In this document: piece by piece, positions 11,478 through 33,851 of the stretch
Layout of the letters: each line of letters opens with the position of its first letter
How positions within the stretch are numbered: position 1 is the stretch's first letter
Source of the DNA: Thermodesulfobacteriota bacterium
GTDB lineage: Bacteria; Desulfobacterota; WTBG01; CAIYCZ01; CAIRTM01
Length of the DNA stretch: 38,929 nucleotides
NCBI GenBank assembly: GCA_028282925.1
Contig: JANQGV010000026.1
Coordinates: 1-38,929, forward strand
Direction of reading: 5' to 3'
Program-made: the position numbers and the translations under genes
Notes under the pieces: model-generated
Databases searched by the model: none
What the model was told of the DNA's origin: nothing
What the model saw: the letters and a program-made list of their open reading frames with translations, nothing else

Positions 11478-13007
11478 ATGACTGTTCGTCGAAAGCAAAA
11501 AAAGGCGTTTGTTTCAACCGAGACGGATACGGCCGCGATATTTCAAGCTGTTGCCGAAATGGCGGATGTGGGTATTTTTGACGTCAGTCTTGAATCCGGG
11601 ACACTCATCGATTGCAACCCGGCATTTATAAAAATACTGGGGTATGAACATAAGAAAGAAGTGATGCAGCTTGATGTTCAAAAAGACCTGTATGCCGTGT
11701 CTGAAGATGTACACTGTCTGCAAAGGCTGCTGAAACGGGAAGGCAGTGTTACAAAACATGAAATAGCTTTAGCCGGCAAGAGTGGGGCAGCCGTGCCTGT
11801 GTTAATAACGGCAAAGGTGAGCAGAAACGAAGGGGGAGACATTATCGGCTACCAGGGGCTTGTCATTGATATATCCGAGCGGCTGACTATCGAGCATGAT
11901 CTGAAGGAAAAGTACGGCTTCCTGACAAGCCTGCTGGAAAGCTCGGTTGACTGTATTGTGGCGACGGACAGGAAGGGTATCATTATCTTTTTCAATAAAG
12001 CCGCTGAAAAGGTCCTTGGATACCGGGCCGATGAAGTCATCGGTTCATATCACATCAGCCGTCTCTATTCCCTGGCAATGGCAAAAGATATTATGCATAA
12101 GCTGCGCAGCAATGATTACGGCGGGCGGGGCAAGCTGGATCAGTTTCGTTTCAGCATGTACGGCAAAGACGGCGTGGAGATTCCGGTAAGCCTATCCGCT
12201 TCCATTGTGTATAAAGACGCACAGGAAATTGCAACCCTGGGCATTTTCACCGACCTGCGCGAGAAACTGAAAATGGAAAAAGAACTTCAGGAGACCCAGC
12301 TCAGGCTGCTCCAGGCCGAGAAAATGGGGTCGCTGGGCAGCCTGGCCGCAGGCGTGGCCCACGAAGTGAACAATCCGCTGGGCGGCATTCTTATCTATGC
12401 CAGCCTGTTGCAGGAAGAGTTTGAAGCGGTTGGTGATCCGCGGGTTGAAGAGATGAAAAAAATTGTAGATGAAACGACACGCTGCAAAGAAATCGTCAGG
12501 AGTCTGCTTGAGTTCGGGCGTCAAACCGAATCGAGATTCGAGCCCATGGATATCAATAAGGCCATCCTGGACGGGCTCTTTTTCCTGGAGAAGCAGGTTA
12601 TTTTTCATGATATCAGGATTATCAAAGCGCTTGATCCTGATGTGCCTTTTGTGCAGGGTAATCCCAATCAGCTCAAGCAGGTTTTTATGAACATTATGGT
12701 CAACGCAGCAGAAGCAATGTCTGATACCGGCGGGCAGCTGACCATCACAACCGGAAAACGAAAAGACGGCACCTCTGTTTTCATTTCTTTTAAAGATACC
12801 GGCCCGGGAATACCACCGAACATTCATTCAAAAATATTCGATCCTTTTTTTACGACCAAAGAGGTCGGCAAGGGAACCGGCCTGGGACTGAGCACTTCAT
12901 ACGGCATTGTTCAAAGCCACCACGGTACCATAGAGGTCAAAAGCAAAACAGGGAAACATACAGTTTTTACCATCATACTGCCCCTTGTCGACAGGCGGAA
13001 GGTATAG
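11478..13007 (+). CDS. Cytoplasmic PAS-PAS sensor histidine kinase
   Basis: The 509-residue protein has no membrane segment. Two PAS domains (about 22-135 and 145-262) show the usual signatures GTLIDCNPAF...LGY and VATDRKGIIIFFN...VLGY. The kinase core follows: HisKA with GSLAAGVAHEVNNPL (His about 295), and HATPase with NIMVNAAEAM, DTGPGI, FDPFFTTK and GKGTGLGLS. The NNPLGG form is typical of kinases that pair with NtrC-type activators, and exactly such a gene starts 2 bases after its stop codon. It probably senses a cytoplasmic redox or metabolic signal and phosphorylates that regulator. The PAS ligand cannot be read from the sequence. Confidence 0.9.
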   Translation: MTVRRKQKKAFVSTETDTAAIFQAVAEMADVGIFDVSLESGTLIDCNPAFIKILGYEHKKEVMQLDVQKDLYAVSEDVHCLQRLLKREGSVTKHEIALAGKSGAAVPVLITAKVSRNEGGDIIGYQGLVIDISERLTIEHDLKEKYGFLTSLLESSVDCIVATDRKGIIIFFNKAAEKVLGYRADEVIGSYHISRLYSLAMAKDIMHKLRSNDYGGRGKLDQFRFSMYGKDGVEIPVSLSASIVYKDAQEIATLGIFTDLREKLKMEKELQETQLRLLQAEKMGSLGSLAAGVAHEVNNPLGGILIYASLLQEEFEAVGDPRVEEMKKIVDETTRCKEIVRSLLEFGRQTESRFEPMDINKAILDGLFFLEKQVIFHDIRIIKALDPDVPFVQGNPNQLKQVFMNIMVNAAEAMSDTGGQLTITTGKRKDGTSVFISFKDTGPGIPPNIHSKIFDPFFTTKEVGKGTGLGLSTSYGIVQSHHGTIEVKSKTGKHTVFTIILPLVDRRKV

Positions 13008-13009
13008 CA

Positions 13010-14374
<1,365 letters not shown>

Positions 14375-14383
<9 letters not shown>

Positions 14384-14525: not shown

Positions 14526-14541
14526 TTGGCACATGTTTTGT
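14526..14541 (+). promoter_or_regulatory. Sigma-54-like promoter (-24/-12)
   Basis: TTGGCACATGTTTTGT fits TTGGCAC-N4-TTGC-type promoters with GG and GT exactly 10 bases apart; the -12 element is GT rather than GC. Transcription would start near 14553, leaving almost no leader before the ATG at 14556, which is a weakness of this call. Confidence 0.5.
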
Positions 14542-14555
14542 AATTCTCATAAGAC

Positions 14556-14969
14556 ATGACCAGGGGTGAAAAAATTCTTATAGTCGATCACGATACCAAA
14601 ACGGCCAAAAAGCTCTACAGGCTTTTTGATCAACAGGGTTTCAAAGCAGTTGTAACCGAGCGGGCCACTGCCGCTATTCGCATACTCCAGCAGGAATGTG
14701 TATCGGTACTTGTGCTTGATGTAGGAATAGTTGATATGGCCTGGCAGGAAGCAATACCTATTATCCGAGGGCTTGACAATGCACTGCCTATCATTATGAC
14801 AGCCGGTGAAAATACACCCGAACTGGAAACCAGCATACTGCATCAGCATGTTTTTTATTATCATGTGAAATCGTTCGGGACAGATGATTTGATGCTGGCG
14901 GTGCGGAGTGCGGTCGAGAAGTCCGCACGGCAACGCCAAAGAAAAAACAGACACAAGGAGGCCACATGA
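14556..14969 (+). CDS. Stand-alone receiver domain protein heading the Met/Hdr run
   Basis: The 137-residue protein is a single CheY-like receiver with a short basic tail. Visible features are ILIVDHD (acidic pocket with His between two Asp), a probable phosphoacceptor Asp at about 55 in VLVLDVGIVD, IIMTAGE, and Lys about 105 in VKSF where VKPF is usual. The replacement of the neighbouring proline and the basic tail (KSARQRQRKNRHK) are mild departures from canonical receivers. Its stop overlaps the next start (ATGA), so it is translationally coupled to the metF-like gene. It may relay phosphate from the neighbouring kinases or bind a protein of the complex. No ribosome site is evident before the ATG. 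Confidence 0.8.
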   Translation: MTRGEKILIVDHDTKTAKKLYRLFDQQGFKAVVTERATAAIRILQQECVSVLVLDVGIVDMAWQEAIPIIRGLDNALPIIMTAGENTPELETSILHQHVFYYHVKSFGTDDLMLAVRSAVEKSARQRQRKNRHKEAT

Positions 14970-15832
14970 GTATTCAGGAATTGCTTGAGGTGAATCCGTT
15001 TACCATTGTTGCAGAGCTTGAACCACCAAAGGGGCCTGATGCGACGGAATTCTGTGATATTGCGGCATCATTGAAAGGGAGGGCGCATGCGCTCTATGTG
15101 CCGGAAATGAAGGGTGCTGTTATGCGCATGGGCTCTCTTGGAGCGAGTGCGCTTTTGAAACAGCAGGGCATAGAAACTATTGTGAACCTGAACTGCAGGG
15201 ATCGTAACCGGCTGGCCTTGCAGGCGGATATGCTCAGTGCAGCGGCGTTGAAGCTCGATAATATACTTCTGAACCGGGGCGATGAAGTTTCAAGTGGAGA
15301 TCATATTGATGCACAACAGGTGCATGATCTTGATGTAGATGCCCTCGTTGCGTGTGCCCGGAAAATCGAGCGTGGTGTCGACCTGGCCGGTAATGATCTG
15401 CAGGGGACCGCCACCTTTTGTCTTGGTTCGGAAGTGAATATCGGTCTTGCCGGCGGTGCCCTTGAAGTGGAAATGCAGAATCTGGAAAAAAAGATCCGGG
15501 CCGGAGTGCAGTACTTTTTCACCCAGCCGACCTACGATCCGGATTCCTGTCGCAGTTTTCTGGAAAAAGCTGCATCGTATAATGTGCCGGTACTGCCGCA
15601 GGTGTGTGTTTTGAACTCGGTGGGTATGGCTCGTTTTATGACACGTCATATTGAAGGTGTCCGGATACCCGATGATGTTATCAACCGATTGGCAAAAGCA
15701 CCGGATAAGCAGCAGGAGAGCATCGCGATTGCTGCCGACACAATAATCAGATTGCGAGACATATCCCGGGGTGCTCTCCTGACAGCGGTCGGCAACCAGG
15801 AGCGCCTGGTGCGCGTTTTTGAAAAATTATAA
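14966..15832 (+). CDS. Short MetF-like (methylenetetrahydrofolate reductase family) protein
   Basis: The 288-residue protein has the MTHFR TIM-barrel signatures: AELEPPKG at the N-terminus with the catalytic Glu, CRDRNRLALQADMLSAAAL, LLNRGDEVSSGDH (flavin-contacting GD) and FFTQPTYD. It is a paralogue of the MetF encoded at 22934, with the same order of motifs but clearly divergent sequence and about 20 residues shorter. AAGGAGG at a spacing of 5 bases supports the start, and the gene overlaps the receiver gene by 4 bases. The family transfers electrons from a flavin to a folate-bound C1 unit. Here it may be a second catalytic subunit, a flavin-carrying adaptor, or act on another C1 substrate. 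Confidence 0.85.
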   Translation: MSIQELLEVNPFTIVAELEPPKGPDATEFCDIAASLKGRAHALYVPEMKGAVMRMGSLGASALLKQQGIETIVNLNCRDRNRLALQADMLSAAALKLDNILLNRGDEVSSGDHIDAQQVHDLDVDALVACARKIERGVDLAGNDLQGTATFCLGSEVNIGLAGGALEVEMQNLEKKIRAGVQYFFTQPTYDPDSCRSFLEKAASYNVPVLPQVCVLNSVGMARFMTRHIEGVRIPDDVINRLAKAPDKQQESIAIAADTIIRLRDISRGALLTAVGNQERLVRVFEKL

Positions 15833-15876: not shown

Positions 15877-16449
15877 ATGATGAATATCGTAAAGGGTGCT
15901 TCGTTCATTAAAAAAGGCAGGGTGTTCGACGACGTGTTTGCCTGTTATCAATGCTGTAAGTGCTCGGCAGGGTGCCCGGTAGCTTTTGCAATGGATCTGT
16001 TGCCGCATCAGATCATCCGGCATCTTATCTATCATGACACGGAAAAAGCCCTGGCATCGCATACGATCTGGATGTGTGCATCCTGTCAAACCTGCAACAC
16101 CCGATGTCCCAATGAAATAGATATAGCGGGAGTAATGGATGAGTTGCGGCACATGCATATACAGAGCGGCCGATATCCGGCAGAACCGGCTACGCCGCTT
16201 TTTCATCACACATTTCTGAATGAGATACAAAAACACGGCCGCATTCATGAACTGAGCCTGATGCAGCGCTATACCTTTAAGCGCAGAAAGCTTCCTGGAA
16301 AAGGTAACCTGCAGGATATGCTGTATGATATGAAGCTGGGCCTTAAACTGTTTTTGCGCGGTAAAATCAGCCTATGGCCCCATCGTGGTAGAAGCCGCTC
16401 AGAGGTTGCAGCCATTTTTAAACATGAGCATGGGAACAAAAAAACATGA
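15877..16449 (+). CDS. hdrC: HdrC-like heterodisulfide reductase iron-sulfur subunit
   Basis: The 190-residue protein carries two classical [4Fe-4S] motifs: CYQCCKCSAGCP (Cys 23, 26, 29, 33) and CASCQTCNTRCP (Cys 67, 70, 73, 77), as in HdrC. The C-terminal half is helical with a basic end. HdrC passes electrons between HdrA and HdrB in the cytoplasmic Hdr complex. AGGAG at 15869-15873 is 3 bases from the first ATG and 6 from the second (15880), so the second may be the true start. The gene overlaps hdrB by 4 bases (ATGA). Confidence 0.92.
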   Translation: MMNIVKGASFIKKGRVFDDVFACYQCCKCSAGCPVAFAMDLLPHQIIRHLIYHDTEKALASHTIWMCASCQTCNTRCPNEIDIAGVMDELRHMHIQSGRYPAEPATPLFHHTFLNEIQKHGRIHELSLMQRYTFKRRKLPGKGNLQDMLYDMKLGLKLFLRGKISLWPHRGRSRSEVAAIFKHEHGNKKT

Positions 16450-17297
16450 AAGTATCTTTTTTTCCAGGGTGCTCACTGGAGGGCACTGCACGGGAATACG
16501 GCGAATCGATTCAGACTGTATGCAGCACATTGAATGTTGTGCTGGAAGAACTTGATGATTGGACGTGCTGCGGGGCCAGTTCTGCGCATTGTACCAGCCG
16601 GTATCTGGCAACAGCGCTCCCCGGTCGTAATTTAGCCCTGGCGGAATCCGTCGGATCTGATCTGGTAACCCCTTGTGCCGCCTGCTTCAGCCGATTGAAA
16701 ACCGCTGTGCATGAATTGAGCGGATCAGACTCCGTTGCACGCGAATATGCTCTCAAACGTCCTGTAAATGTCAGGCACATACTTGAGTTCCTCTGCAGCG
16801 AAGAGATGGTTCAAGGCATAGAAGAGCGCATTGTCAAACCTCTTACCGGTTTGAAAGCGCTCAGCTATTATGGGTGTCTGCTGGTGCGACCGCCTAATAT
16901 TACAGAAGAGCCACACTGGGAAGACCCCCGAAGCCTTGATGCCCTCCTCATCCACCTGGGTGCTGAATGTATATACTGGTCTTATAAAACCGAATGTTGC
17001 GGCGGCAGTCTTCTGCTGACCAATGTTGATATCAGCCGGCGACTGATCGGGCGGATGCTGGACATGGCCTGTGAAACCGAAGCAGAATGCATTGTTACCG
17101 CCTGTCCCTTATGTCAGGTGAATCTCGACACGCGTCAGGATGAAATCGGTGAATTGAATAAAAAGGAGTATTCTATCCCGGTATTCTATTTCAGTGAGCT
17201 TATGGGACTGGCATTCAATGAGCCTGATGCCGGGAAATGGCTGCGTAGGCATATCGTTGATCCACAGCCGCTTCTTAAGGCAAAGGGACTCTTGTAA
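16446..17297 (+). CDS. hdrB: HdrB-like heterodisulfide reductase subunit with two CCG domains
   Basis: The 283-residue protein has two CCG (cysteine-rich) domains of the HdrB type: PGC (Cys 9) ... WTCCG (Cys 41, 42) ... PCAAC (Cys 77, 80), and YYGC (Cys 144) ... ECCGG (Cys 184, 185) ... ACPLC (Cys 220, 223). Both sets are complete, so in principle it could bind two non-cubane [4Fe-4S] clusters as in the methanogen enzyme, whose HdrB reduces CoM-S-S-CoB. Bacteria lack that substrate. In MetFV-HdrABC-MvhD complexes HdrBC is thought to pass electrons to MetV/MetF. An 83-base gap separates it from hdrA. Confidence 0.93.
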   Translation: MKVSFFPGCSLEGTAREYGESIQTVCSTLNVVLEELDDWTCCGASSAHCTSRYLATALPGRNLALAESVGSDLVTPCAACFSRLKTAVHELSGSDSVAREYALKRPVNVRHILEFLCSEEMVQGIEERIVKPLTGLKALSYYGCLLVRPPNITEEPHWEDPRSLDALLIHLGAECIYWSYKTECCGGSLLLTNVDISRRLIGRMLDMACETEAECIVTACPLCQVNLDTRQDEIGELNKKEYSIPVFYFSELMGLAFNEPDAGKWLRRHIVDPQPLLKAKGLL

Positions 17298-17380: not shown

Positions 17381-20300
17381 ATGGTTCGTAATAATCAAAC
17401 GGTACCGAATAAAAAAGACCCTTCCCGGATCGGTGCAGTCATGGTGGTCGGTGCCGGAGTGGGCGGTATTCAGGCGGCCCTTGATCTGGCTGAAAGCGGA
17501 TTCAAGGTGTATCTGGTTGAGAAAGAGTCCGCAATCGGAGGCCGGATGGCCCAGCTCGATAAAACATTTCCAACCAACGACTGTTCCATGTGTATTATAT
17601 CTCCAAAGCTGGTGGAAGTAGGGCGGCACCGTAATATTGAGACGTTGACCTGTGCCGAAGTTGAACAGATTTCAGGTAAACCGGGCAATTTTACCGTACT
17701 GATACATCAGAAAGCGCGGTTTGTTGATCTGGACACCTGCACCGGGTGCGGGGACTGCGCCAAAGTGTGCCCGGTGAGCGTAGCCAGTGAATTCGATGCC
17801 GGACTTGCTGAGCGCAGAGCCGTTTACAAGCGTTATCCCCAGGCTATACCGGGCGCTTTTGCTATCGACAAGGCCGGGATTTCACCGTGTAAGGCGGCAT
17901 GCCCGGCCGGGATTCATGTTCAGGGGTACGTTGCGCTCATAGCACAGGGGAAATATAAAGAAGCCCTGGCTTTGATCAGGAAACATAATCCGCTTCCCAG
18001 CGTGTGCGGCCGGGTCTGCACGCACCCCTGTGAAACAGAATGCACCCGATCGAAAGTGGATGACCCCATAAACATCATGGCGCTGAAGCGTTTTGTTTCA
18101 GATCGGGAAATCCTGAGTGGAGACTATGAGGTCCCGGCAATAGAGAAGGACCGGGGAGAAAAGGTTGCCATTGTAGGCTCCGGGCCGGCCGGACTTTCGG
18201 CCGCCTTTTACCTGGCTTTGGAAGGATACCGGGTTACGATATTTGAAGCCTTGTCTGAACCCGGCGGCATGCTTTCCTGGGGTATCCCTGGATACCGATT
18301 GCCCCGGGACGTGCTCAGACATGATATCGGCTCTATCCAGCGCCTGGGGGTTGAGATCAAGACAAATACTCCCATCGGGAAAGGCGTTTCAATTGATGAT
18401 CTGTTTGCCCGGGGCTTTAAATCGGTATATCTGGCCGTCGGCGCGCATGTCAGCAATAAACTGGCAATTCCGGGTGAAGATTTGAAAGGGGTGATCCATG
18501 GTGTTGATTATTTGCGGGAGATAAACGGCGGTGCATCGATATCACTTGGGAAACGGGTTGCGGTGATCGGCGGGGGCAATGTTGCCGTCGACGCGGTACG
18601 CACAGCTCTCCGAAAAGGCGCTCAAGAGGCTTTTATTATCTATAGACGCAGCCGCCAGGAGATGCCGGCCCTGGATGAGGAGATCATTGAAGCCGAAGAG
18701 GAAGGTGTGGTCATACACTATCTGGTCGCTCCAAAGAAAATAGTGGGTGAAGGCGGAAAGGTAACCGGTATTGAATGTATAAGAATGGAGCTTGGTGAGC
18801 CGGATGAAAGCGGCCGGCGTCGACCGCTGCCGGTTGAAGGTTCGGAATTTATTATTGAAGTCGATGCGGTAATTGCGGCAATCGGCCAGTCGGTTGACAT
18901 GACATGCCTGGAAATGCGTACTGATTTCACATTTTCCTCCGGAAATACCCTGCACGCCGATCCGCTGACGTATGAAACAGGTGTAAAAGGTGTGTTTGCC
19001 GGAGGTGATATGGTAACAGGGCCTGCAACGGTTGTTGAGGCGTTGGGAGCCGGGCGTGAGGCGGCAATTTCAATCGCACGATACCTGCAGGGGCTGGATT
19101 TACGGGAAGGGCGCGAAAAGGAGTATGACGTTTCCGAACCTGATGTGATCGATATGGCCTGTGAGGCCCGTAAAAAAGCAGAAAAATTGCCACCACCCGA
19201 CAGAATACGGCATTTTCGCGAAGTTCAGGCCGGATACCGTGAAGAAGATGCCGTTGCCGAGGCTGAACGCTGCTTGAGTTGTGGAATATGCAGCGAATGC
19301 CTGCAGTGTGTAGAAGCCTGTATGGCACATGCCGTGCGGCACGAAGATGTTGACAGGGAGCTGCGGGTAGCTGTCGGCTCGGTTATCCTCGCTCCGGGCT
19401 TTGAAACAACCGATCCCGGCCTCCGGGAGGAATACGGCTATCATCGCTATCCAAATGTCATTACCAGCCTGGAATTCGAGCGCATTCTCTCTGCTTCAGG
19501 TCCGTTTCAGGGGCATATCGTGCGGCCGTCGGACCAGAGCGAGCCGAAGCGTGTGGCCTGGATACAGTGCGTGGGTTCGCGTGATCCGTCCTGCAATAAG
19601 GATTACTGTTCATCGGTGTGCTGTATGTACGCCACCAAAGAAGCGGTTATTGCAAGGGAGCATTCACCGGATATAATGCCGACCATTTTTTATATGGATC
19701 TGAGGGCCCACGGCAAGGGATTTGACGGGTACTGCGAGCGCGCCCGGGATGATCATGGTGTGCGATATGTGCATTGCCAGGTGTCAAAAATCATTGAAAA
19801 GCCCAAATCAAAAAATCTGTTGATCAGCTTTATCAATGATGAAAACAGGGTATGCGAGGAGGAGTTTGATCTGGTGGTGCTGTCGGTGGGCATGAGTATT
19901 TCGGGCAACGCACAGGCGGCAGCAGAAAGGATGGGGGTTGCATTTAATACATACGGCTTTTGTCGAACTGAGCCGCTCAGGCCGGTTGCGACTTCACGGC
20001 CGGGAATATATGTGTGCGGCGCTTTCGAATCACCCAAGGATATTCCGGAAACCGTATCACAGGCGAGCGGAGCCGCCTGTGCGGCCACGGAAATGCTGGC
20101 CCGGTCACGGGATACGCTTACCGTAACCGAGGAGTTTCCACCAGAGCTGGAGACGGAGGCGGAAGAGCCTCGAATCGGTGTATTTGTGTGTCGTTGCGGT
20201 ATCAATATCGGCGGGGTGGTTGATGTGCCGTCCGTGGTTGACTATGCCAGGACGCTCCCGGGAGTGGCATGCGTTGAAGAAAACCTGTATACCTGCTCTC

Positions 20301-21844
20301 AGGATACCCAGGGTAAAATAAAACAGATTATTATGGATAACAGGCTGAACCGCATAGTGGTTGCCTCCTGCTCACCCAGAACCCATGAACCCCTTTTTCA
20401 GGAAACAATTCGCCAGGCCGGGCTGAATAAGTATCTGTTCGAAATGGCGAATATTCGCGACCAGTGTTCCTGGGTTCATATGGATTCCCCACAGCCTGCA
20501 ACCGAAAAAGCAAAAGACCTGGTGCGGATGGCGGTTTCCGCAGCCGGTTTTCTGAAGCCCCTGCATGAGCAACATCTTTCAATGCATAAAAGAGCTTTGA
20601 TAGTAGGTGGAGGTGCTGCCGGCATGACGGCCGCGCTGGGAATAGCACGCCAGGGATTTGAAGCTGTTCTGGTTGAAAAGGAGGGCGCGCTGGGCGGCAA
20701 CCTGCATCATCTGCACTATACGATTGAGGGAAGTAATACCCAGGGTTTTCTGGCTTCCCTGGTAGAGCAGGTGAGAAACCACCCGCTGGTTCGGGTGATG
20801 CTGAACAGTGAAATCGTGGATTTTACCGGATTCAAAGGGAATTTTAAAACCGGTGTGATGACGGCACCGGGCATGGCCTATCATAGCATCGAGCACGGGG
20901 TTGCCCTTATTGCAACCGGCGGCAGGGAGTATCCGCCTGATGAATATCGGTACGGGCAGGATAGCCGGGTTATGACCCAGCAGGAGTTTGAGGAAAAACT
21001 GGAACTGCAAGAAATAAGTCATCATCAATCGTCAACAGTTGTTATGATTCAGTGCGTTGGTTCAAGGATTCCGGAACGACCGTACTGCAGCCGGGTCTGC
21101 TGTGCGGCAGCGGTTAAGAATGCACTCAAGGTAAAGGAACACGACCCGGATGCACGAGTCTATATACTGTACCGGGATATGCGGACCTATGGATTTTTTG
21201 AGGAGTACTATACCCGTGCCCGAAAAGCCGGCATTGTTTTTATCCGATATGACCTTGATAACAAGCCGGAGGTGCTCAGCAACGAAAAAGGAATAATTGT
21301 TACCGTGAGAGATCCCCTTATTAATGAAAATATCAGCATTACTGCCGCAACACTGGTTCTGAGCAGTGCGGTACTGCCCAGCGATATCGACGAGCTTGCC
21401 GCCCTTATGAAGCTTCAGCGTACACCGGAAGGCTTTTTACTGGAAGCCCATATGAAGCTGAGACCCGTGGATCTGGCAACCGAAGGACTATTTTTATGTG
21501 GTCTGGCCCACGCGCCCAAGTCGTTGCCGGAAAGTATTTCACAGGCCTCGGCCGCTGTTTCACGGGCATGTACCATGCTGGCACATGACACTATTACGGC
21601 TGATGCCATGGTTGCAACGGTTGAAGAGGACAAATGTGCGGTTTGCCTGACATGCGTGCGGGTTTGTCCCTATGATGTGCCGTTTATCAACGAAGACGGC
21701 GTAGCACAGATCGATGCAGCCAGGTGTCAGGGCTGCGGATCATGTGCTGCCGAATGCCCGGGCAAGGCAATACAGTTGCAGCACTGTGAAGACACGATTA
21801 TTATCGCAAAAACAGAGGCACTTTCAGAAGAGGTGAAAGAATGA
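17381..21844 (+). CDS. hdrA: Giant HdrA: HdrA half - NfnB/GltD module - second HdrA, fused
   Basis: The 1,487-residue protein contains several redox modules in order: an HdrA-type FAD domain (GAGVGG about 24-29; PTNDCSMCIISPKLVE 64-79) with CTGCGDCAKVCP (120-131); a GltD/NfnB-type N-terminal Fe-S domain (CKAACPAGIHV 170-180; CGRVCTHPCETEC 209-221); an NfnB-like FAD/NAD(P)H module (GSGPAG 266-271; GGGNVAVD 397-404; YRRSRQEMPA 421-430; GGDMVTGP 541-548); a cysteine-rich stretch (CLSCGICSECLQC 631-643); the rest of the first HdrA half (WIQCVGSRD, YCSSVCCMYATKEA); then a second HdrA with its N-terminal VCRCGINIGG (936-945), FAD loop VGGGAAG (1075-1081), YCSRVCC, and two C-terminal ferredoxin clusters (CAVCLTCVRVCP, CQGCGSCAAECP). 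HdrA is the flavin electron-bifurcating hub of Hdr complexes; the inserted module suggests NAD(P)H as one partner. GGGAG at 7 bases supports the start. Confidence 0.93.
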   Translation: MVRNNQTVPNKKDPSRIGAVMVVGAGVGGIQAALDLAESGFKVYLVEKESAIGGRMAQLDKTFPTNDCSMCIISPKLVEVGRHRNIETLTCAEVEQISGKPGNFTVLIHQKARFVDLDTCTGCGDCAKVCPVSVASEFDAGLAERRAVYKRYPQAIPGAFAIDKAGISPCKAACPAGIHVQGYVALIAQGKYKEALALIRKHNPLPSVCGRVCTHPCETECTRSKVDDPINIMALKRFVSDREILSGDYEVPAIEKDRGEKVAIVGSGPAGLSAAFYLALEGYRVTIFEALSEPGGMLSWGIPGYRLPRDVLRHDIGSIQRLGVEIKTNTPIGKGVSIDDLFARGFKSVYLAVGAHVSNKLAIPGEDLKGVIHGVDYLREINGGASISLGKRVAVIGGGNVAVDAVRTALRKGAQEAFIIYRRSRQEMPALDEEIIEAEEEGVVIHYLVAPKKIVGEGGKVTGIECIRMELGEPDESGRRRPLPVEGSEFIIEVDAVIAAIGQSVDMTCLEMRTDFTFSSGNTLHADPLTYETGVKGVFAGGDMVTGPATVVEALGAGREAAISIARYLQGLDLREGREKEYDVSEPDVIDMACEARKKAEKLPPPDRIRHFREVQAGYREEDAVAEAERCLSCGICSECLQCVEACMAHAVRHEDVDRELRVAVGSVILAPGFETTDPGLREEYGYHRYPNVITSLEFERILSASGPFQGHIVRPSDQSEPKRVAWIQCVGSRDPSCNKDYCSSVCCMYATKEAVIAREHSPDIMPTIFYMDLRAHGKGFDGYCERARDDHGVRYVHCQVSKIIEKPKSKNLLISFINDENRVCEEEFDLVVLSVGMSISGNAQAAAERMGVAFNTYGFCRTEPLRPVATSRPGIYVCGAFESPKDIPETVSQASGAACAATEMLARSRDTLTVTEEFPPELETEAEEPRIGVFVCRCGINIGGVVDVPSVVDYARTLPGVACVEENLYTCSQDTQGKIKQIIMDNRLNRIVVASCSPRTHEPLFQETIRQAGLNKYLFEMANIRDQCSWVHMDSPQPATEKAKDLVRMAVSAAGFLKPLHEQHLSMHKRALIVGGGAAGMTAALGIARQGFEAVLVEKEGALGGNLHHLHYTIEGSNTQGFLASLVEQVRNHPLVRVMLNSEIVDFTGFKGNFKTGVMTAPGMAYHSIEHGVALIATGGREYPPDEYRYGQDSRVMTQQEFEEKLELQEISHHQSSTVVMIQCVGSRIPERPYCSRVCCAAAVKNALKVKEHDPDARVYILYRDMRTYGFFEEYYTRARKAGIVFIRYDLDNKPEVLSNEKGIIVTVRDPLINENISITAATLVLSSAVLPSDIDELAALMKLQRTPEGFLLEAHMKLRPVDLATEGLFLCGLAHAPKSLPESISQASAAVSRACTMLAHDTITADAMVATVEEDKCAVCLTCVRVCPYDVPFINEDGVAQIDAARCQGCGSCAAECPGKAIQLQHCEDTIIIAKTEALSEEVKE

Positions 21845-22269
21845 ATGATTTTCAGCCTGTTATCACAGCTTTTTGCTGTCGATACTGAGCCTATTCAGCT
21901 GCGGACCTGGCAGGGTCCATGCGACTGTCCTATCCGGTAAATATTAAAATTATCAAGGTGCCCTGCACCGGTAAAGTGGATGTTCTGTATTTGCTCAAGA
22001 TGTTTCAAAACGGTGCAGACGGAGTTTTTGTGGCCGGATGCATGGAAGGAGACTGCCATTTTCTTACGGGTAACCTCCGGGCCAAAAAGCGGGTTGAATA
22101 TGTACGAAGAATTCTGGATGAGACCGGTATCGGCGGTGAACGCATAGCCATGTACAATATGTCGGCTGCCCAGGCCACACGCTTTGTTGAAGCGGCCCGG
22201 GAAATGACGGAACGTATCCGGGAGCTTGGGCCGAGCCCGGTTAAAAAAATAATGGAGGAGGTCGGCTGA
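21841..22269 (+). CDS. mvhD: MvhD-like [2Fe-2S] subunit, probable selenoprotein (in-frame TGA)
   Basis: The frame runs from the ATG at 21841 (ATGA overlap with hdrA, ribosome site GAGGTGAAAG) through a TGA at 21886-21888 to the stop at 22267-22269. With the TGA read as selenocysteine the product is 142 residues, the usual MvhD length, and starts MNDFQPVITAFCCRYU AYSAADLAG; MvhD proteins normally have FCCxxCxYxxADLAG here, so Sec replaces the third cluster cysteine. Further ligands are Cys 42, 67 and 72 (GCMEGDC). MvhD links HdrA to a hydrogenase or formate dehydrogenase, and VhuD of methanococci is a known selenoprotein. A start at the internal ATG 21919 would drop three of the six cluster ligands. 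The gene overlaps metV by one base. Confidence 0.88.
21886..21918 (+). promoter_or_regulatory. Sec TGA codon and bacterial SECIS-like hairpin
   Basis: After the TGA (21886-21888), GGACC (21903-21907) and GGTCC (21914-21918) form a stem closing a six-base loop TGGCAG. The loop contains the GG expected in bacterial SECIS elements and lies about 20 bases after the TGA, within the usual distance. The stem may extend by flanking GC/GC pairs. Confidence 0.7.
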
Positions 22270-22937
22270 TGGTAATCGGTGAAGGAAAGCCGTTGCAGGA
22301 TGTTCTGGCAATGGTAAGCCAAAATAAAAAGATTATTGTGGCCGGATGCCGGGGCTGTGTTACGGTCTGCTGCGCAGGAGGCGAAAAGGAGGTCGGCGTA
22401 CTGTCTGCAGCCCTGAACTTGGCACGCCAAAAGGATGACAACCCAATCGAAATACACGAAGTAACCCTTGAGCGGCAATGCGATACGGAATACCTGGAGC
22501 AGGTAAGAAGTTTTATTGATGAATATGAAGCGGTTGTGTCTATTGCCTGCGGAGCCGGGGTACAGTTTATGGCGGAAATGTACAGGAAAATACCGATCTA
22601 CCCGGGCATCAACACCAATTTTATCGGTGTTACCGAGCAACAGGGAGTCTGGGCGGAACGATGCCAGGCATGCGGCAATTGCAAGCTGCATTTTACCGGC
22701 GGCATATGCCCGGTGACACGCTGTGCTAAAAGACTGATGAACGGGCCGTGCGGCGGATCAACACAGGGGAAATGTGAAGTCGACCCGGAAACAACCTGCG
22801 GATGGCAGTTGATTTATGATGTGCTGAAGGAGCAGGGACGGCTTGATAAGCTTGAGCATATTATTCCCGTATCCGACTGGTCGACCAGCCGGGACGGCGG
22901 GCCACGAAGAATTGTCAGAGAGGATTTGAAGTTATGA
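22269..22937 (+). CDS. metV: MetV, zinc/iron-sulfur partner of methylene-THF reductase
   Basis: The 222-residue protein has an N-terminal part with GCRGCVTVCCAGG (Cys 27, 30, 34, 35) and the MetV / MTHFR_C cysteine-rich C-terminal domain: CQACGNC (132-138), GGICPVTRC (144-152), MNGPCGG (158-163), GKCEV (Cys 169) and TCGWQLIYD (Cys 177). MetV forms the MetFV heterodimer in acetogens and carries Fe-S and zinc sites that deliver electrons to the MetF flavin. It overlaps mvhD (TGATG) and metF (ATGA), so these three are translationally coupled. Identification is strong; the physiological electron donor is inferred. Confidence 0.92.
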   Translation: MVIGEGKPLQDVLAMVSQNKKIIVAGCRGCVTVCCAGGEKEVGVLSAALNLARQKDDNPIEIHEVTLERQCDTEYLEQVRSFIDEYEAVVSIACGAGVQFMAEMYRKIPIYPGINTNFIGVTEQQGVWAERCQACGNCKLHFTGGICPVTRCAKRLMNGPCGGSTQGKCEVDPETTCGWQLIYDVLKEQGRLDKLEHIIPVSDWSTSRDGGPRRIVREDLKL

Positions 22938-23860
22938 CATCCGACAGTCGTCTTGAAAAAATACTGGAGGAGGGGCATTTTGCCGTAACGTCCGAATGCG
23001 GCCCACCGCGTGGAGTCGGGCCGGAAGTAATTCAAAAAAAGGGGGAGATTCTGAAAGGAGTGGTTGATTCAGTCAACGTAACCGATAATCAGACGTCGGT
23101 TGTGCGTATGTCGAGCTGGTCCGCCGGTGTGCTGCTGAAACAGATGGGAATTAATCCGGTATATCAAATGGTTACCCGTGACCGCAATCGGATTGCTATC
23201 CAGAGCGATATTCTCGGCGCAGCGTCACTGGGGATTAACACCATCCTGTGTCTTTCAGGAGATCATCAGAAGTTCGGAGATCATGAAGCTGCGGCCAATG
23301 TGTATGATCTGGATTCAATACATTTAATTCAGACGGTCAAGCTCATGCGGGATGATAAGAAGTTCCTCGGCGGCGATGAACTGAAAGGTGAACCGCGGAT
23401 GTTTATCGGAGCAGCCGCAAATCCATTTGCAGACCCATTTGAGTTTCGAGTGGTGCGGCTGGCGAAGAAGATTAATGCCGGTGCCCAGTTCATCCAAACA
23501 CAGTGTATTTTCAATATCGAGCGCTTTAAAAAGTGGATGGAAATGGTGCGGGATAGGGGTTTGCATGAAAAAGCACATATCCTGGGCGGCGTTACCCCTT
23601 TAAAATCTATCGGTATGGCAAAATATATAAAAAATATGGTTCCCGGAATGGATGTTCCGGATGAATTGATAGAGAGGATTAAGGGGGTCGAAAAAGAGAA
23701 GCGAGCAGAGGAAGGTATTAAGATATGCATCGAGACAATACAGCAAGTGCGTGAGATAGAAGGTGTTCACGGAGTGCACATTATGGCAATTGAATGGGAG
23801 GAAATGGTTCCGCGCATTGCAGATGAAGCCGGGCTGCTGCCTCGCCCGGCTGCGCAATAA
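22934..23860 (+). CDS. metF: 5,10-methylenetetrahydrofolate reductase MetF
   Basis: The 308-residue protein matches the MTHFR TIM barrel: TSECGPPRG with the catalytic Glu, TDNQTSVVRMSS, QMVTRDRNRIAIQSDILGA, LCLSGDHQKFGDHEA (GD contacting flavin/folate), GAAANPFADP and FIQTQCIFN. It catalyses the interconversion of methylene-THF and methyl-THF in the methyl branch of the Wood-Ljungdahl pathway. In an acetate-oxidising sulfate reducer the reverse direction would be used. It is the last gene of the coupled run; a 53-base gap precedes the next receiver gene. No NADH site is visible in MetF itself, in line with electrons arriving through MetV/Hdr. Confidence 0.94.
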   Translation: MTSDSRLEKILEEGHFAVTSECGPPRGVGPEVIQKKGEILKGVVDSVNVTDNQTSVVRMSSWSAGVLLKQMGINPVYQMVTRDRNRIAIQSDILGAASLGINTILCLSGDHQKFGDHEAAANVYDLDSIHLIQTVKLMRDDKKFLGGDELKGEPRMFIGAAANPFADPFEFRVVRLAKKINAGAQFIQTQCIFNIERFKKWMEMVRDRGLHEKAHILGGVTPLKSIGMAKYIKNMVPGMDVPDELIERIKGVEKEKRAEEGIKICIETIQQVREIEGVHGVHIMAIEWEEMVPRIADEAGLLPRPAAQ

Positions 23861-23913
23861 CGGCAGGGTACGCAGCTTTAAAACATGTAAACGGATGAAA
23901 GGAGGTGTTTCAT

Positions 23914-24291
23914 ATGGCAAAAATACTCATTGTTGATGATGATCCCGACCTGGTTGAATCAATTGAGAGATTACTGAAAAGTAAAAAGCATGAGGTCATA
24001 GCCGCCTATGACGGAGATGCCGGTCTGGAAAAGGTCAGGTCCGAAAAGCCGGATGCAATCATTCTGGATGTTATGATGCCCGGTAAAGACGGATATGCAG
24101 TCTGTAAGGAGCTCAAGAGCGATCCGGACTGTTCATCAATACCGGTTCTGCTGTTAACGGCGGTTGTTTCTCATATCCCGACAACGGCCTATTCGATGCG
24201 CGACGGAATGGAAATTGAAGCTGAAGATTATATAGATAAACCGGTTGAGCCCGATGAACTGGTAAACAGAGTAGAAGAACTTTTAGCCTGA
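23914..24291 (+). CDS. Stand-alone receiver (CheY-like) protein
   Basis: The 125-residue product is one receiver domain: ILIVDDDPD acidic pocket, phosphoacceptor Asp about 52 in IILDVMMPGKDG, PVLLLTA and Lys in DKPVEP. The insert IPTTAYSMRDGMEIEAEDYI is typical of receivers found beside Hdr and hydrogenase gene clusters in sulfate reducers (from memory, unverified). The ATG at 23914 is 8 bases after GGAGG; the GTG at 23905 overlaps that ribosome site and is rejected. It may act with the receiver-kinase hybrid encoded downstream. Confidence 0.88.
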   Translation: MAKILIVDDDPDLVESIERLLKSKKHEVIAAYDGDAGLEKVRSEKPDAIILDVMMPGKDGYAVCKELKSDPDCSSIPVLLLTAVVSHIPTTAYSMRDGMEIEAEDYIDKPVEPDELVNRVEELLA

Positions 24292-24375
24292 TTATCGGTA
24301 TGCTGCCGCAGGCAACCTGTTGTGTGTATGATACACGCGATGACGGTCCGGGCATATACGAAAAGGTTTGCTGTT

Positions 24376-25533
24376 ATGCAAGGTGAAGATGAAAAAAAGG
24401 AATGTGATACAATGTGCATCCTTGTAGTTGACGATGAGAAAATTATAAGAGAAGGAGCGGAATGTATTCTTGTAAAGGAGGGGTGGCAAACCGGAACGGC
24501 CGAAAACGGCCGGGAGGGGCTCAATCTCATTGCAACCGGCAGCTATCAGCTCCTGTTGCTTGATCTGATGATGCCGGGTATCAGCGGGATGGAAGTGCTG
24601 AAAAACGTCCGACAGTCATATCCTGATGTAATCGTCATCGTTATTACCGGGTATGCAACCATTGAAAATGCCGTGGAGGCCATGAAAAACGGGGCCTATG
24701 ATTTTATTGCAAAGCCGTTTACTCCCGACCAGTTACGTATTGTCGTCAGGCGTGCCTTTGAAAAAAGAGACCTGATGCTGGAAACAGAAGCATTGCGCCG
24801 GGAACGCAGGCAAAGAATGCAGGATTTCGTAAACCTTGTTTCGCATGAGCTTCGTTCACCACTCAATTCCATCCAGCAGCAGCTTTTTAATCTCCTCAAG
24901 GGGCTTGCCGGAGAAATAACCAGCGACCAGCACATGATTCTTGAGCGAGTACAGGGTAGATTGTCGGGGCTGACCGGCATGATTAAAAATCTTCTTGATG
25001 TTTCGCGGTTTGAAACAGAGCCGTTTTTGCAGAATAAGGAGCCTGTGTGTTTGAAGGAGATTGTTCAGGAAGCGGTTGAAATATGTCAGGATGATGCTCG
25101 TGAAAAAAATATAACCATAATGAATAAAGTCTCTGCAAAGGCAGCAGCGGTTGAAGCCGACAGGCAAGGTCTTGTAAGTGTTTTTGCAAACCTGGTAAGT
25201 AATGCCGTTAAATACAACAGGGCTGGAGGGACAGTACATGTCCGAAGCCGCTCAAGGGGCGCACATGTCGAAATTACGGTTGCCGACAACGGAATAGGCA
25301 TTGCACCTGATCATCTGGAACGCATATTCGATCGGTTTTTTCGCATCAGAACGGACGAAACCCGGCACGTTATCGGAAGCGGTCTGGGGCTTTCGCTTGT
25401 AAAGTCTATTATTAAGGGGCACAATGGTGGTATAGCCGTTGAAAGTGTTCCCGGAACGGGAACGGACGTAACGGTCCGCCTGCCTAAGAGCATACAGCAA
25501 TTGTCATTAAGGGCATACAGCAATTGTCATTAA
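24376..25533 (+). CDS. Receiver - histidine kinase hybrid
   Basis: The protein has an N-terminal receiver (ILVVDDEK, phosphoacceptor in LLLLDLMMPG, Lys in AKPFTP), then HisKA (VSHELRSPLNS) and HATPase (NLVSNAVKYN, DNGIGI, GSGLGLSLVKS). It has no membrane segment, so its input is the phosphorylation state of its receiver. The receiver is close in sequence to that of the NtrC-type regulator at 13010, suggesting a shared upstream kinase. Starts at 24376 (AAAAGG, 9 bases) and 24412 (AAGGA, 10 bases) are both plausible. The last 14 codons lie in a 23-base tandem duplication that has altered the C-terminus (25490-25535). Confidence 0.85.
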   Translation: MQGEDEKKECDTMCILVVDDEKIIREGAECILVKEGWQTGTAENGREGLNLIATGSYQLLLLDLMMPGISGMEVLKNVRQSYPDVIVIVITGYATIENAVEAMKNGAYDFIAKPFTPDQLRIVVRRAFEKRDLMLETEALRRERRQRMQDFVNLVSHELRSPLNSIQQQLFNLLKGLAGEITSDQHMILERVQGRLSGLTGMIKNLLDVSRFETEPFLQNKEPVCLKEIVQEAVEICQDDAREKNITIMNKVSAKAAAVEADRQGLVSVFANLVSNAVKYNRAGGTVHVRSRSRGAHVEITVADNGIGIAPDHLERIFDRFFRIRTDETRHVIGSGLGLSLVKSIIKGHNGGIAVESVPGTGTDVTVRLPKSIQQLSLRAYSNCH

Positions 25534-30935: not shown

Positions 30936-32267
30936 TTATGACTTCTGAACCTGTCCGATCAACTGTGACAGTACGCCCATATCGGCTGTGATAACCATGC
31001 GCATACGGTCTTTAAGGTCATCAGGAACTTCGTCCATAGCGATAAACTGCTGCATAACCATGGTGGTGAAGTCGTAGGGTGTTGCCTCGGCTTCTTCCAT
31101 GACGATGGGGTATTTCTGGGACAGGTCGAACAGGAAGTCCAGCTCTTTTACGGAGAAGAAGCGTGGGAACATAACCCGTTTCATGTAGTCGGCCATGCGG
31201 ACCGGGTTCTTGACCCATTCAAAATGGTCTTCCCAGAATTTTTTGTAGTGAGCAAAGCCTTTCTTGCCTTCCAGTTCTTCCTCGATGCAAACCGCACCCA
31301 TATAACCGGCCATTGTTGCGCTCTGGTAGAGGCATTCGAGCCAGGCGGCCGAATCGCCGACAAAAAGGATGTTGCCGTATGCCGGGTCCAGCATGGGAGT
31401 GAGCATTTCAACCATGGCGCCGCTCTTGTCAACGATTTTGGCCTTCTTGAACCATTTTGAGAAAGGGCCTTTCTTGGTAAAGTGCTCGATGATTGCTTCG
31501 CCGGTGGAGGCCGGGAGTACCGAGATTGTTTCAAGACGGTAAGCGTCTTCGGCGATGGGGCTGGGTACCATGATCAGGCCCCCGGCCATGCCGCCGAAGT
31601 TTTTTGCGCCGAAGAAGAAGCAGTCACCGCGATCATACGGCATGTCGACTCCCACCATTTCGTATTCAATGGTGGGGCCTTTGCCGAAGAACTGGCGGCT
31701 TTTGTTGGCTCCGGACACCTTAGCCATGCGGGATGAAAGACCGTCGGATGCGATCATTTTTTTGCAGGTCAGAACCCGGTTTTTCCCGTTGGTGCGTACC
31801 GTAAGGCGTACTTCCTTGTCGGACTGCTCTACGCGCAGGGCCATTGTTTCGGTCAGGAATTCAGCGCCTTTTTTCTGGGCCCACTCATAGCGGTCGGCTT
31901 TACACTGGCCGGGGTTGAACAGGTTGTAAAAAGGCTTTTTAGTTGTGGATGCCCGCCACCATTTACCGGTATCGGAGAACATGTATGAATGATACACGCC
32001 CTGCATAATACCTGTGTAATAGGTGGAGAATCCAAGCGAGTCGAAGTGCATGTAGGTCCGGTTTTCTTCGGGCTTCTCTTCTGTTCTGATAACACAATTG
32101 TTGAATGGCTGGTTTACAAAACAGTATCCGGAAGCCGTGCGGGTGTTTCGTCCGAGGTCAGGGCTTTTATCCACGCCCAGAACCTTAACACCACGTTTGG
32201 CCAGCTCACCGCAGGCCATAAGCCCGGCCGGTCCGCATCCAACCACTATCACATCATAATCTGCCAT
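30936..32267 (-). CDS. FAD-dependent oxidoreductase, FixC/geranylgeranyl-reductase-like
   Basis: The 443-residue protein starts with a Rossmann FAD motif (VIVVGCGPAGLMACGELAKRG ending in VDKS; the dinucleotide loop is GCGPAG) and has the later FAD motif NILFVGDSAAW. Between them lies a substrate-binding part as in the geranylgeranyl reductase / FixC superfamily, which includes prenyl reductases and ETF:quinone-oxidoreductase-like proteins. No C-terminal ferredoxin cluster is seen. It is the last gene of an apparent three-gene flavoprotein operon (52 bases after the preceding gene) and has AGGAGG before its ATG. The substrate is unknown; a role in oxidising or reducing a product of the two FAD oxidases is inferred from context only. 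Confidence 0.82.
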   Translation of the reverse strand: MADYDVIVVGCGPAGLMACGELAKRGVKVLGVDKSPDLGRNTRTASGYCFVNQPFNNCVIRTEEKPEENRTYMHFDSLGFSTYYTGIMQGVYHSYMFSDTGKWWRASTTKKPFYNLFNPGQCKADRYEWAQKKGAEFLTETMALRVEQSDKEVRLTVRTNGKNRVLTCKKMIASDGLSSRMAKVSGANKSRQFFGKGPTIEYEMVGVDMPYDRGDCFFFGAKNFGGMAGGLIMVPSPIAEDAYRLETISVLPASTGEAIIEHFTKKGPFSKWFKKAKIVDKSGAMVEMLTPMLDPAYGNILFVGDSAAWLECLYQSATMAGYMGAVCIEEELEGKKGFAHYKKFWEDHFEWVKNPVRMADYMKRVMFPRFFSVKELDFLFDLSQKYPIVMEEAEATPYDFTTMVMQQFIAMDEVPDDLKDRMRMVITADMGVLSQLIGQVQKS

Positions 32268-32319
32268 GTCTACGTTAACCTCCTGTTATAAATTGATTCG
32301 TAAAAAAGTATGTTCATTA

Positions 32320-33795
32320 TTATGTAAAGCAGAGTTTCCCGGGGTTTAAGATATTGTTCGGGTCTGTGTCTGCTTTGAGCTTCCTCAGCATCTGGGTGTA
32401 GTTGGCAGCCCTGGCATAGATCATGTCGGCCCAGGCTCCGTACGGACGGTCGAAATAGGCGCCGTTGTTGAGAAGGTCTGCAGAAGCTTCAAGCCAGAGG
32501 GCTTTTACCGCGTGACGGGCATCACCGCATTCGGCAGGTGAGTGCAGATCGAACTCACAGTGTACTGCACGGCCGCGCTCCAGCGGGAGCAGGAACATGC
32601 CGATGTCGCCGGTGGAATATCCGTGCTTGCCAGCAAGCTCCTGAAGGCGTTTCTCAAGCTCCGCTGCTTTCTTCAGGGGAGCTTTGAAGGTCAGGTCGTT
32701 TACAGACCCCTTATAGTTGAATTTTTTCAGTATGGACCAGGGGCGCAGCAGCTCGTTTTTCATCATGATATCCGCACCGGGAACGTTGGGCAGATTTTCA
32801 AGCAGGGGCAGGTTGACGCTGTCGCACACTTCTTTGAGCGCTTCGGATTCATAGGCTATCTTTTCTTCGGCCCGGCGGATGTTGCCGTTGATGCATACGG
32901 TGATCACCCAGGGAGGCAGCTCTTTGCGCATTGCTTCGAAATCGGCCGATGTAGAGGCTTCGGCCGGGAACTGTTCAGGAATGTTCCATCCGTCGGCACA
33001 CATTGCAGCCAGGTTGAAGCTGTTCAGGATCAGGCATTCGGTTCCGATTTCCCTGAGCTGCATGGCCTTTACCGCACCGGTGGCTTCCTCAAGGGTGTTG
33101 CAGGGGATGAAGAATAACTGCTGGTGCTTCTGGATCGGCTCTACCTGGAGAACCATTTTGATCATAATGCCGAGGGTGCCCTGGGCAGCGGTGAACATGC
33201 GGAAAAGAGTGTTGCGGATAGGTCCGCTTGGTGCGCCGGGATCACCGCCGGAGGCCCAGTTGCCGGTCCGGAAAATTTCACCGTTGGGCAGTACCAGTTC
33301 GGTATCCATGATAAGATAGTTGCCGTGCTCAAAACTGGGCGCGGCCATAACCGGGTCGCGTTCAAGGTAGCTGGTTAGAACAGAGCGTTGCGGGGGGGTG
33401 CCGAAGGGCACCATGATCCGCAGGCCTTTTTCCGTCAGGTTGTCCTGCAGTTGCTGATAGGTAACGCCCGGCTCAACGATGACATACCAGTTTTCTTCAT
33501 CGATGGAGATGATCTTGTTCATGCGCGACATGTCAAGCATGATGCCGCCCTGGTCCGGGATGGTGGCGCCATGCAGGTTCATGCCTGAGCTGTATGGAAT
33601 TACCGGGGTTTTAGTTTCATTTGCCTTGAGGATAATTGCCTGAACCTGTTCGCCGTTTTCTACATATGCAACCAGATCGGGTCTGCGGGCAGAAACAAAG
33701 CTCTGGTCTTTTGAATACGCTGCAAGGGTGGCCTCATCATCAAGGACATTGCCCTGTCCAACGATTTTTTCTATATCACTTTTTTGAACCGCCAT
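32320..33795 (-). CDS. FAD-binding oxidase (PCMH/VAO type), 491 residues
   Basis: The protein shows the PCMH-type FAD-binding domain in its first half (PVIPYSSGMNLHGATIPDQGG as the diphosphate-binding part, MSRMNKIISID, and VEPGVTYQQLQDNL) and an FAD-linked oxidase C-terminal domain ending in DPNNILNPGKLCFT. The family includes 4-cresol dehydrogenase, vanillyl-alcohol oxidase, glycolate oxidase GlcD and alkyl-DHAP synthase. It is related to, but clearly different from, the adjacent 570-residue gene, so the two may form a heteromer or act in sequence. GAGAGGA precedes its ATG. The substrate and electron acceptor cannot be read from the sequence; in an anaerobe the acceptor is not oxygen. Confidence 0.85.
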   Translation of the reverse strand: MAVQKSDIEKIVGQGNVLDDEATLAAYSKDQSFVSARRPDLVAYVENGEQVQAIILKANETKTPVIPYSSGMNLHGATIPDQGGIMLDMSRMNKIISIDEENWYVIVEPGVTYQQLQDNLTEKGLRIMVPFGTPPQRSVLTSYLERDPVMAAPSFEHGNYLIMDTELVLPNGEIFRTGNWASGGDPGAPSGPIRNTLFRMFTAAQGTLGIMIKMVLQVEPIQKHQQLFFIPCNTLEEATGAVKAMQLREIGTECLILNSFNLAAMCADGWNIPEQFPAEASTSADFEAMRKELPPWVITVCINGNIRRAEEKIAYESEALKEVCDSVNLPLLENLPNVPGADIMMKNELLRPWSILKKFNYKGSVNDLTFKAPLKKAAELEKRLQELAGKHGYSTGDIGMFLLPLERGRAVHCEFDLHSPAECGDARHAVKALWLEASADLLNNGAYFDRPYGAWADMIYARAANYTQMLRKLKADTDPNNILNPGKLCFT

Positions 33796-33851
33796 TTTTG
33801 TTTCCTCTCTCTGTAACGTTCAAAGGTTTTCTCTATAGTGCACTACCACCG

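Follow-up and report, generated by a model that had tools for sequence, protein, structure and literature searches.

A separate clade of MetF-like proteins linked to HdrA-type MTHFR gene clusters

The operon described here encodes two MetF-like proteins, a presumed catalytic MetF (MetFL) and a shorter protein (MetFs) that belongs to a separate clade, is linked to HdrA across relatives, co-occurs with an MvhD-MetV-MetFL cluster, is altered at conserved site positions and is coupled to a degenerate receiver (RRhead). Judged from sequence and gene order, MetFs has in our estimate an even chance of being an accessory or regulatory subunit of an HdrA-type MTHFR with an altered C1 site. It would then be a member of the complex, would lack ordinary MTHFR activity and would exert a regulatory effect.

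Layout of the operon

The window, by which we mean the whole 38,929-nucleotide stretch analyzed, is one contig (C93) of a 5.6-Mb, 324-contig genome. It holds the complete 6S-type MTHFR gene set, hdrA, hdrB, hdrC, mvhD, metV and metF, in a single run (Table 1). Because the same genome encodes acetyl-CoA synthase and formyl-THF synthetase, both on contig C185, a Wood-Ljungdahl setting is plausible.

The original prediction for this DNA described two strongly different MTHFR-family proteins, the shorter at the head of the operon and translationally coupled to a receiver domain. Both reading frames have the predicted lengths and share 30% identity over 286 aligned columns, and the RRhead stop and MetFs start overlap in the sequence ATGA. 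MetFs does lie near the operon start, but the first gene of the run is the receiver, with a histidine kinase and a sigma-54 activator upstream.

Table 1. Features of the MetFs operon and its surroundings (positions in the window).
Feature	Position	Strand	Remark
PAS histidine kinase	11478..13007	+	
Sigma-54 activator with receiver domain	13010..14383	+	
Sigma-54 (-24/-12)-like site TGGCACATGTTTTGTA, 5' of RRhead	14527..14542	+	only strict match in window
RRhead, single-domain receiver	14556..14969	+	4-nt overlap with MetFs
MetFs, 288-aa MTHFR-fold protein, separate clade	14966..15832	+	ATG start; no adjoining MetV gene in window
HdrC-like 4Fe-4S protein	15877..16449	+	
HdrB-like CCG protein	16446..17297	+	
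HdrA, 1487 aa, GltD/NfnB-like NAD(P)H-dehydrogenase insertion	17381..21844	+	
MvhD/FlpD	21841..22269	+	probable true start 21841, ATGA overlap with HdrA
MetV (PF12225 domain)	22269..22937	+	
MetFL, 308 aa, presumed catalytic MetF, MetV partner	22934..23860	+	every conserved site residue kept
RRtail, single-domain receiver	23905..24291	+	
Receiver-histidine kinase hybrid after operon	24322..25533	+	named from sequence reading, not a family-library scan

Several side observations concern the neighboring reading frames. MvhD/FlpD probably begins 26 codons 5' of its listed frame (window 21841-21918), across an in-frame TGA at 21886-21888 (context CCRY-TGA-AYSAADLAG) that is common to five relatives (L039, L047, L055, L084 and L087). 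This codon probably encodes selenocysteine; a tRNA-Sec match in the same genome scores 79.4 bits (cut-off 47), and selenocysteine in MvhD is already described from Desulfobacteraceae (PMC2702500, PMC5109826). In five Desulfobacterales relatives (L101, L109, L111, L140 and L141), an in-frame TGA interrupts HdrA at NDCxM-TGA, and the window HdrA has Cys at that place (NDCSMC); of the six loci compared, L132 had its frames mispaired. On the minus strand, positions 30936-35564 encode in a row a pair of FAD-linked oxidase-like proteins, of 491 and 570 aa, and an FAD-dependent oxidoreductase of 443 aa, all named by eye.

A separate clade with an altered site

Both proteins match the general Pfam family PF02219 (cut-off 24 bits), MetFs with 83.8 bits and MetFL with 140.3, so that tallies of MetF in anaerobes could lump altered forms together with catalytic ones. 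The structure model of MetFs (pLDDT 91) finds its best structural match in Thermus thermophilus MTHFR (1v93; Z 30.6, rmsd 3.1, 273 residues), which supports the MTHFR TIM-barrel fold; a PDB sequence search returned weak MTHFR matches only. MetFs thus has fold and catalytic Glu in common with the E. coli and T. thermophilus enzymes, but scores far under the NCBIfam equivalog cut-offs (TIGR00676, 56.6 of 293.7 bits; NF006396, 180.9 of 453 bits), a score without power to separate the two paralogues since the 308-aa MetFL also falls below the cut-off.

The genome encodes three MTHFR proteins. The third, on contig C71 immediately after a MetV gene, shares 63% identity with MetFL and 33% with MetFs. 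A protein-pattern scan of genome contigs found no relative; an alignment-based scan did, and the best 80 of its 570 matches were retained, which biases the sample toward close relatives. Removal of MetF frames below 230 or above 480 aa and of 14 identical rows (199 to 185) left 185 rows, from the relatives' loci and E. coli MetF, as input to FastTree. The tree contains a MetFL clade of 63 rows, which is the Moorella-like MetF; a looser group of 41 other MetV-linked MetF (hereafter x), with one row (L151) that was scored as MetFs and fell among x; and a clade of 80 with support 99, composed of 72 MetFs and eight cousins (hereafter s2). In this tree MetFs stands nearer to x than to MetFL. In a careful thinned tree of 35 rows, the 22 MetFs and s2 rows again group together (80/99) and x is scattered at the base; how MetFs and s2 branch relative to each other is uncertain, and monophyly of MetFs excluding s2 is neither established nor refuted (p-AU 0.52).

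Forcing the window MetFs into the MetFL clade lowers the log-likelihood by 111 units (AU test, p-AU 1.8e-6). A recent duplication of MetFL is therefore ruled out and MetFs is an old paralogue.

Site residues were compared in E. coli numbering, mapped by sequence alignment at about 20% identity to the E. coli protein. In E. coli MTHFR the pterin is bound by Gln183 and Asp120, with Glu28 serving as the acid (PMC11094777, PMC9900621); according to PMC11094777, loss of Gln183 raises the Km for methylene-H4F more than 250-fold and D120N leaves 0.3% of kcat. PMC13001107, searched for site residues, gave no match. The complete trio is present in 63/63 MetFL and 40/41 x, compared with 2/72 MetFs and 0/8 s2 (the latter keep D120 and H273 and have no Gln183). 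The two complete MetFs are that of L055 and the window copy, in which E17, D106 and Q187 correspond to E28, D120 and Q183; with these three residues kept, the window protein could still bind a pterin. Across the 72 MetFs, Glu28 is kept in 69, which is odd for a dead enzyme; position 120 is Asp in 27 and Glu in 37; and 70 no longer have Gln183, which is replaced variously by P, N, T, G or S. The catalytic Glu and GD motifs that the two paralogues were said to share are thus both found in the window copy, but only part of the clade keeps the Asp of GD. The Gln183 position offers a simple first test of altered versus catalytic MetF in most genomes.

Other positions are relaxed as well. The T59/Asn position varies among V, N, L, M and Y; the window copy has Tyr44 where 103 of the 104 x and MetFL rows have Asn, together with Asn74 in place of Gln and Leu271 in place of His. 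Fifty-seven columns are fixed at 90% or more in x as well as in MetFL; 27 of them are kept in fewer than 70% of MetFs, and the window protein differs at 19. The folate sites of the two paralogues are accordingly not identical, and the mostly incomplete trio and relaxed columns point to a changed site in the clade. The earlier argument against simple redundancy holds on both counts, descent and site, and we regard such redundancy as unlikely. Constraint of another kind persists: N81, Q86, G111, V119, S218 and M221 are invariant in all 72 MetFs and occupy columns common to MetV-type groups and absent from E. coli MetF, which may mark a retained docking or structural face. Typical of the clade itself are P46 (70/72) and K22 and G23 (all). 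Positions 165, 168, 171 and 172 of E. coli MTHFR we take to be flavin contacts; position 168 is K or R in 104/104 x and MetFL rows and mostly N, E or D in MetFs, and K172 is kept in 50/72.

Gene neighbors, co-occurrence and signaling genes

Directly 3' of MetFs stand HdrA (35 of 72 rows), a PAS kinase (16), HdrC (11) or another gene or none (10); directly 5' stand RRhead (22) and MetV (7). Of the 65 informative rows, 60 have HdrA among the next five genes downstream (seven further rows end at contig ends), the five exceptions being L057, L078, L080, L086 and L113, and MetFs overlaps HdrA by 4 nt (ATGA) in L101, L109 and L132. The RRhead-MetFs gaps of -59 and -98, and part of the HdrA gaps, stem from taking the leftmost start or from in-frame TGA codons. 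Only 22/72 MetFs have HdrB or HdrC nearby, so that many Desulfobacterales loci read MetFs-HdrA-MvhD-MetV-MetFL without HdrBC. An obligate link with HdrB/HdrC is thereby ruled out, and the expected co-occurrence of the short form with hdrC/hdrB gives way to one with HdrA. In the window a receiver, not MetV, directly precedes MetFs; a MetV partner is possible in some loci, namely those seven where MetV is directly upstream. Desulfatibacillum alkenivorans also carries MetFs (L120).

Two loci depart from these arrangements. One MAG (G013) has a single 475-aa frame that joins a MetFs, minus its last strand and with Val at the Glu position, to HdrC; this fusion, from one assembly, may be an error. 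At another locus (L049, genome G033), an x-type MetF with its own MetV takes the place of MetFs before HdrC; it carries Gly at the T59 position and His at the Q183 position and is possibly an intermediate form.

The s2 cousins adjoin other genes. In four of eight rows (L048, L064, L068 and L070), s2 is followed by FdhA/NuoG-like, NuoE-like and HdrA-like proteins, MetV and an x-type MetF; the FdhA/NuoG-like protein has 897 aa in L048 and apparently occupies two frames in L070. L041 has a similar x-type cluster upstream of s2. In L078, L080 and L086, s2 precedes a protein of roughly 670 aa, which in L078 combines MTHFR and MetV-like domains in one chain. Among these neighbors the L048 and L078 proteins were the ones scanned. 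A second MetF-like protein therefore also occurs on a second type of MTHFR cluster, and the four s2-headed clusters could represent a formate dehydrogenase-MTHFR machine.

We next tallied 58 genomes by hand, defining the cluster as a run of MvhD (at least 100 bits), MetV and MetFL. Three genomes cut by contig ends (G012, G020 and G039, of which G012 and G039 carry MetFs) were set aside. MetFs occurs in 15 of 24 genomes with the cluster versus one of 31 without it (G024), a Fisher p of 1.4e-6 when kinship is ignored. MetFs thus tends to need the cluster and the cluster does not need MetFs; because nine of the 24 cluster genomes have none, it is not essential, and a core subunit is ruled out.

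The linkage to HdrA by itself falls short of proving a MetFs complex. In the reading that we favor, an HdrA-type MTHFR would consist of HdrA, MvhD, MetV and MetF, with or without HdrBC, and would probably be electron-bifurcating. MetFs would derive from a MetV-partnered MetF. In most cases the MetV partner would have been lost, along with much of the pterin/flavin site; the TIM barrel, the Glu of the site and the motifs peculiar to MetV-type MetF would have remained. MetFs may associate with the complex, inside it or on its surface, in the vicinity of HdrA/HdrC and MetV-MetFL, and tune or stabilize it, while MetFL would carry out methylene-THF reduction (or methyl-THF oxidation).

The regulatory side of this reading draws on the signaling genes. 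The window RRhead has His as the second acid of its Mg-binding pair and keeps the phospho-Asp and Lys. Across the 22 RRhead rows the second-acid position is Pro in 16, Gln in three, His in one, Arg in one and a gap in one, so that this acid is lost in 21/21 rows with a letter; the phospho-Asp is kept in 20/22. RRtail, among the matches listed, keeps acid pair, Asp and Lys in 25/25. Thus both members of the pair at the operon head, receiver and MetF, are altered, and with two-component genes touching MetFs in many loci, MetFs may have a regulatory role. Strict sigma-54-like sites precede 7/70 MetFs runs versus 0.15 expected from shuffles, and 0/62 MetFL; most relatives' MetFs upstream regions have none. 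(Two of the 72 MetFs, L042 and L045, were dropped by choice, and one of the 63 MetFL upstream regions was too short.) In the window, the strict site before RRhead and the adjoining activator gene make sigma-54 control of the operon likely.

These same observations bear on the best-placed alternative, in which MetFs is a sensor that would bind but not convert methyl-THF, methylene-THF or a related pterin and would report the C1 state to the receiver or kinase coupled to it, which would then set operon expression or complex activity. The adjacency of RRhead and PAS kinase to MetFs, the degenerate acid pair beside an intact phospho-Asp, the retained catalytic Glu and the sigma-54-like sites all favor it. 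Against it, many Desulfobacterales MetFs stand directly before HdrA without an adjoining same-strand two-component gene, and a receiver often follows MetFL too, so the signaling genes mark the whole operon and not MetFs alone. We consider a sensor, receiver or kinase output included, unlikely though worth keeping in view.

Remaining alternatives and known systems

An active second reductase in the same complex, working on a different C1 carrier or substrate, is improbable. The full Glu, Asp and Gln set of the window protein speaks for it, as do the residues typical of the clade and the Glu at the D120 position, which 37/72 MetFs have in common with hMfr, a flavin-independent reductase (PMC11094777). 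The loss of Gln183 without a single replacement and the variable T59/Asn position are, however, unlike a new fixed site, and nothing found shows the different C1 carrier of the original prediction.

A more specific proposal, which we offer as a doubtful speculation, is that the degenerate RRhead and MetFs together form a C1-responsive clutch for an electron-bifurcating MTHFR, in which MetFs reads the methyl/methylene-pterin state and gates electron flow or complex assembly. Were this so, s2, where it precedes MTHFR clusters of the formate dehydrogenase type, would play the same part for a second enzyme system.

The flavin-transfer role also suggested earlier, with MetFs as a relay from HdrA to MetV-MetF, has the flavoprotein fold and the adjacency to HdrA in its favor; it is weakened by the lost or relaxed basic positions 168 and 172, and in the Moorella model MvhD and MetV already give the route, which leaves it quite improbable. 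Least probable is a redundant or decaying copy, to which the long branch of the window MetFs and the MAG lacking the last strand and the Glu might point, but which sits badly with retention across many lineages, with invariant residues and recurring gene order, and with the AU test.

Our search of the open-access literature found no paper on the MetFs protein and, in the text accessible there, only one case of a second MetF in such operons, that of Chloroflexi DscP3 (PMC5736913). As here, the DscP3 genome has hdrABC-mvhD-metVF and two divergent MetF (MetF_1 and MetF_2), one of them adjoined by two-component genes. Its second MetF set has its own MetV, whereas the window MetFs has none adjoining, and the MetFs clade differs from that of the MetV-linked forms. 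The X-type MTHFR of Desulfobacterales and Chloroflexi is described as MetFV with NuoEFG-like proteins (PMC8515935), a likeness to the four s2-headed clusters; no second MetF is named in the accessible part of that account, whereas the s2 clusters have one.

The closest known system is the HdrABC-MvhD-MetFV complex of Moorella thermoacetica, a 6S-type MTHFR (Mock et al. 2014, via PMC8515935, PMC6085437, PMC5736913). The literature accessible to us does not settle the way in which methylene-THF reduction by HdrA-type MTHFR is coupled to a second acceptor, nor the identity of the second electron acceptor of the Moorella complex, and an additional, conserved MetF-like protein would be a component so far missing from purification and structure work. 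HdrC, HdrB, HdrA, MvhD, MetV and MetF stand in one run in both. Unlike the Moorella complex as described, the window has an HdrA with an NfnB-like insertion and an MvhD that probably contains selenocysteine, and to a six-subunit list with one MetF it adds the MetF-like protein, two receivers and sigma-54 signaling genes.
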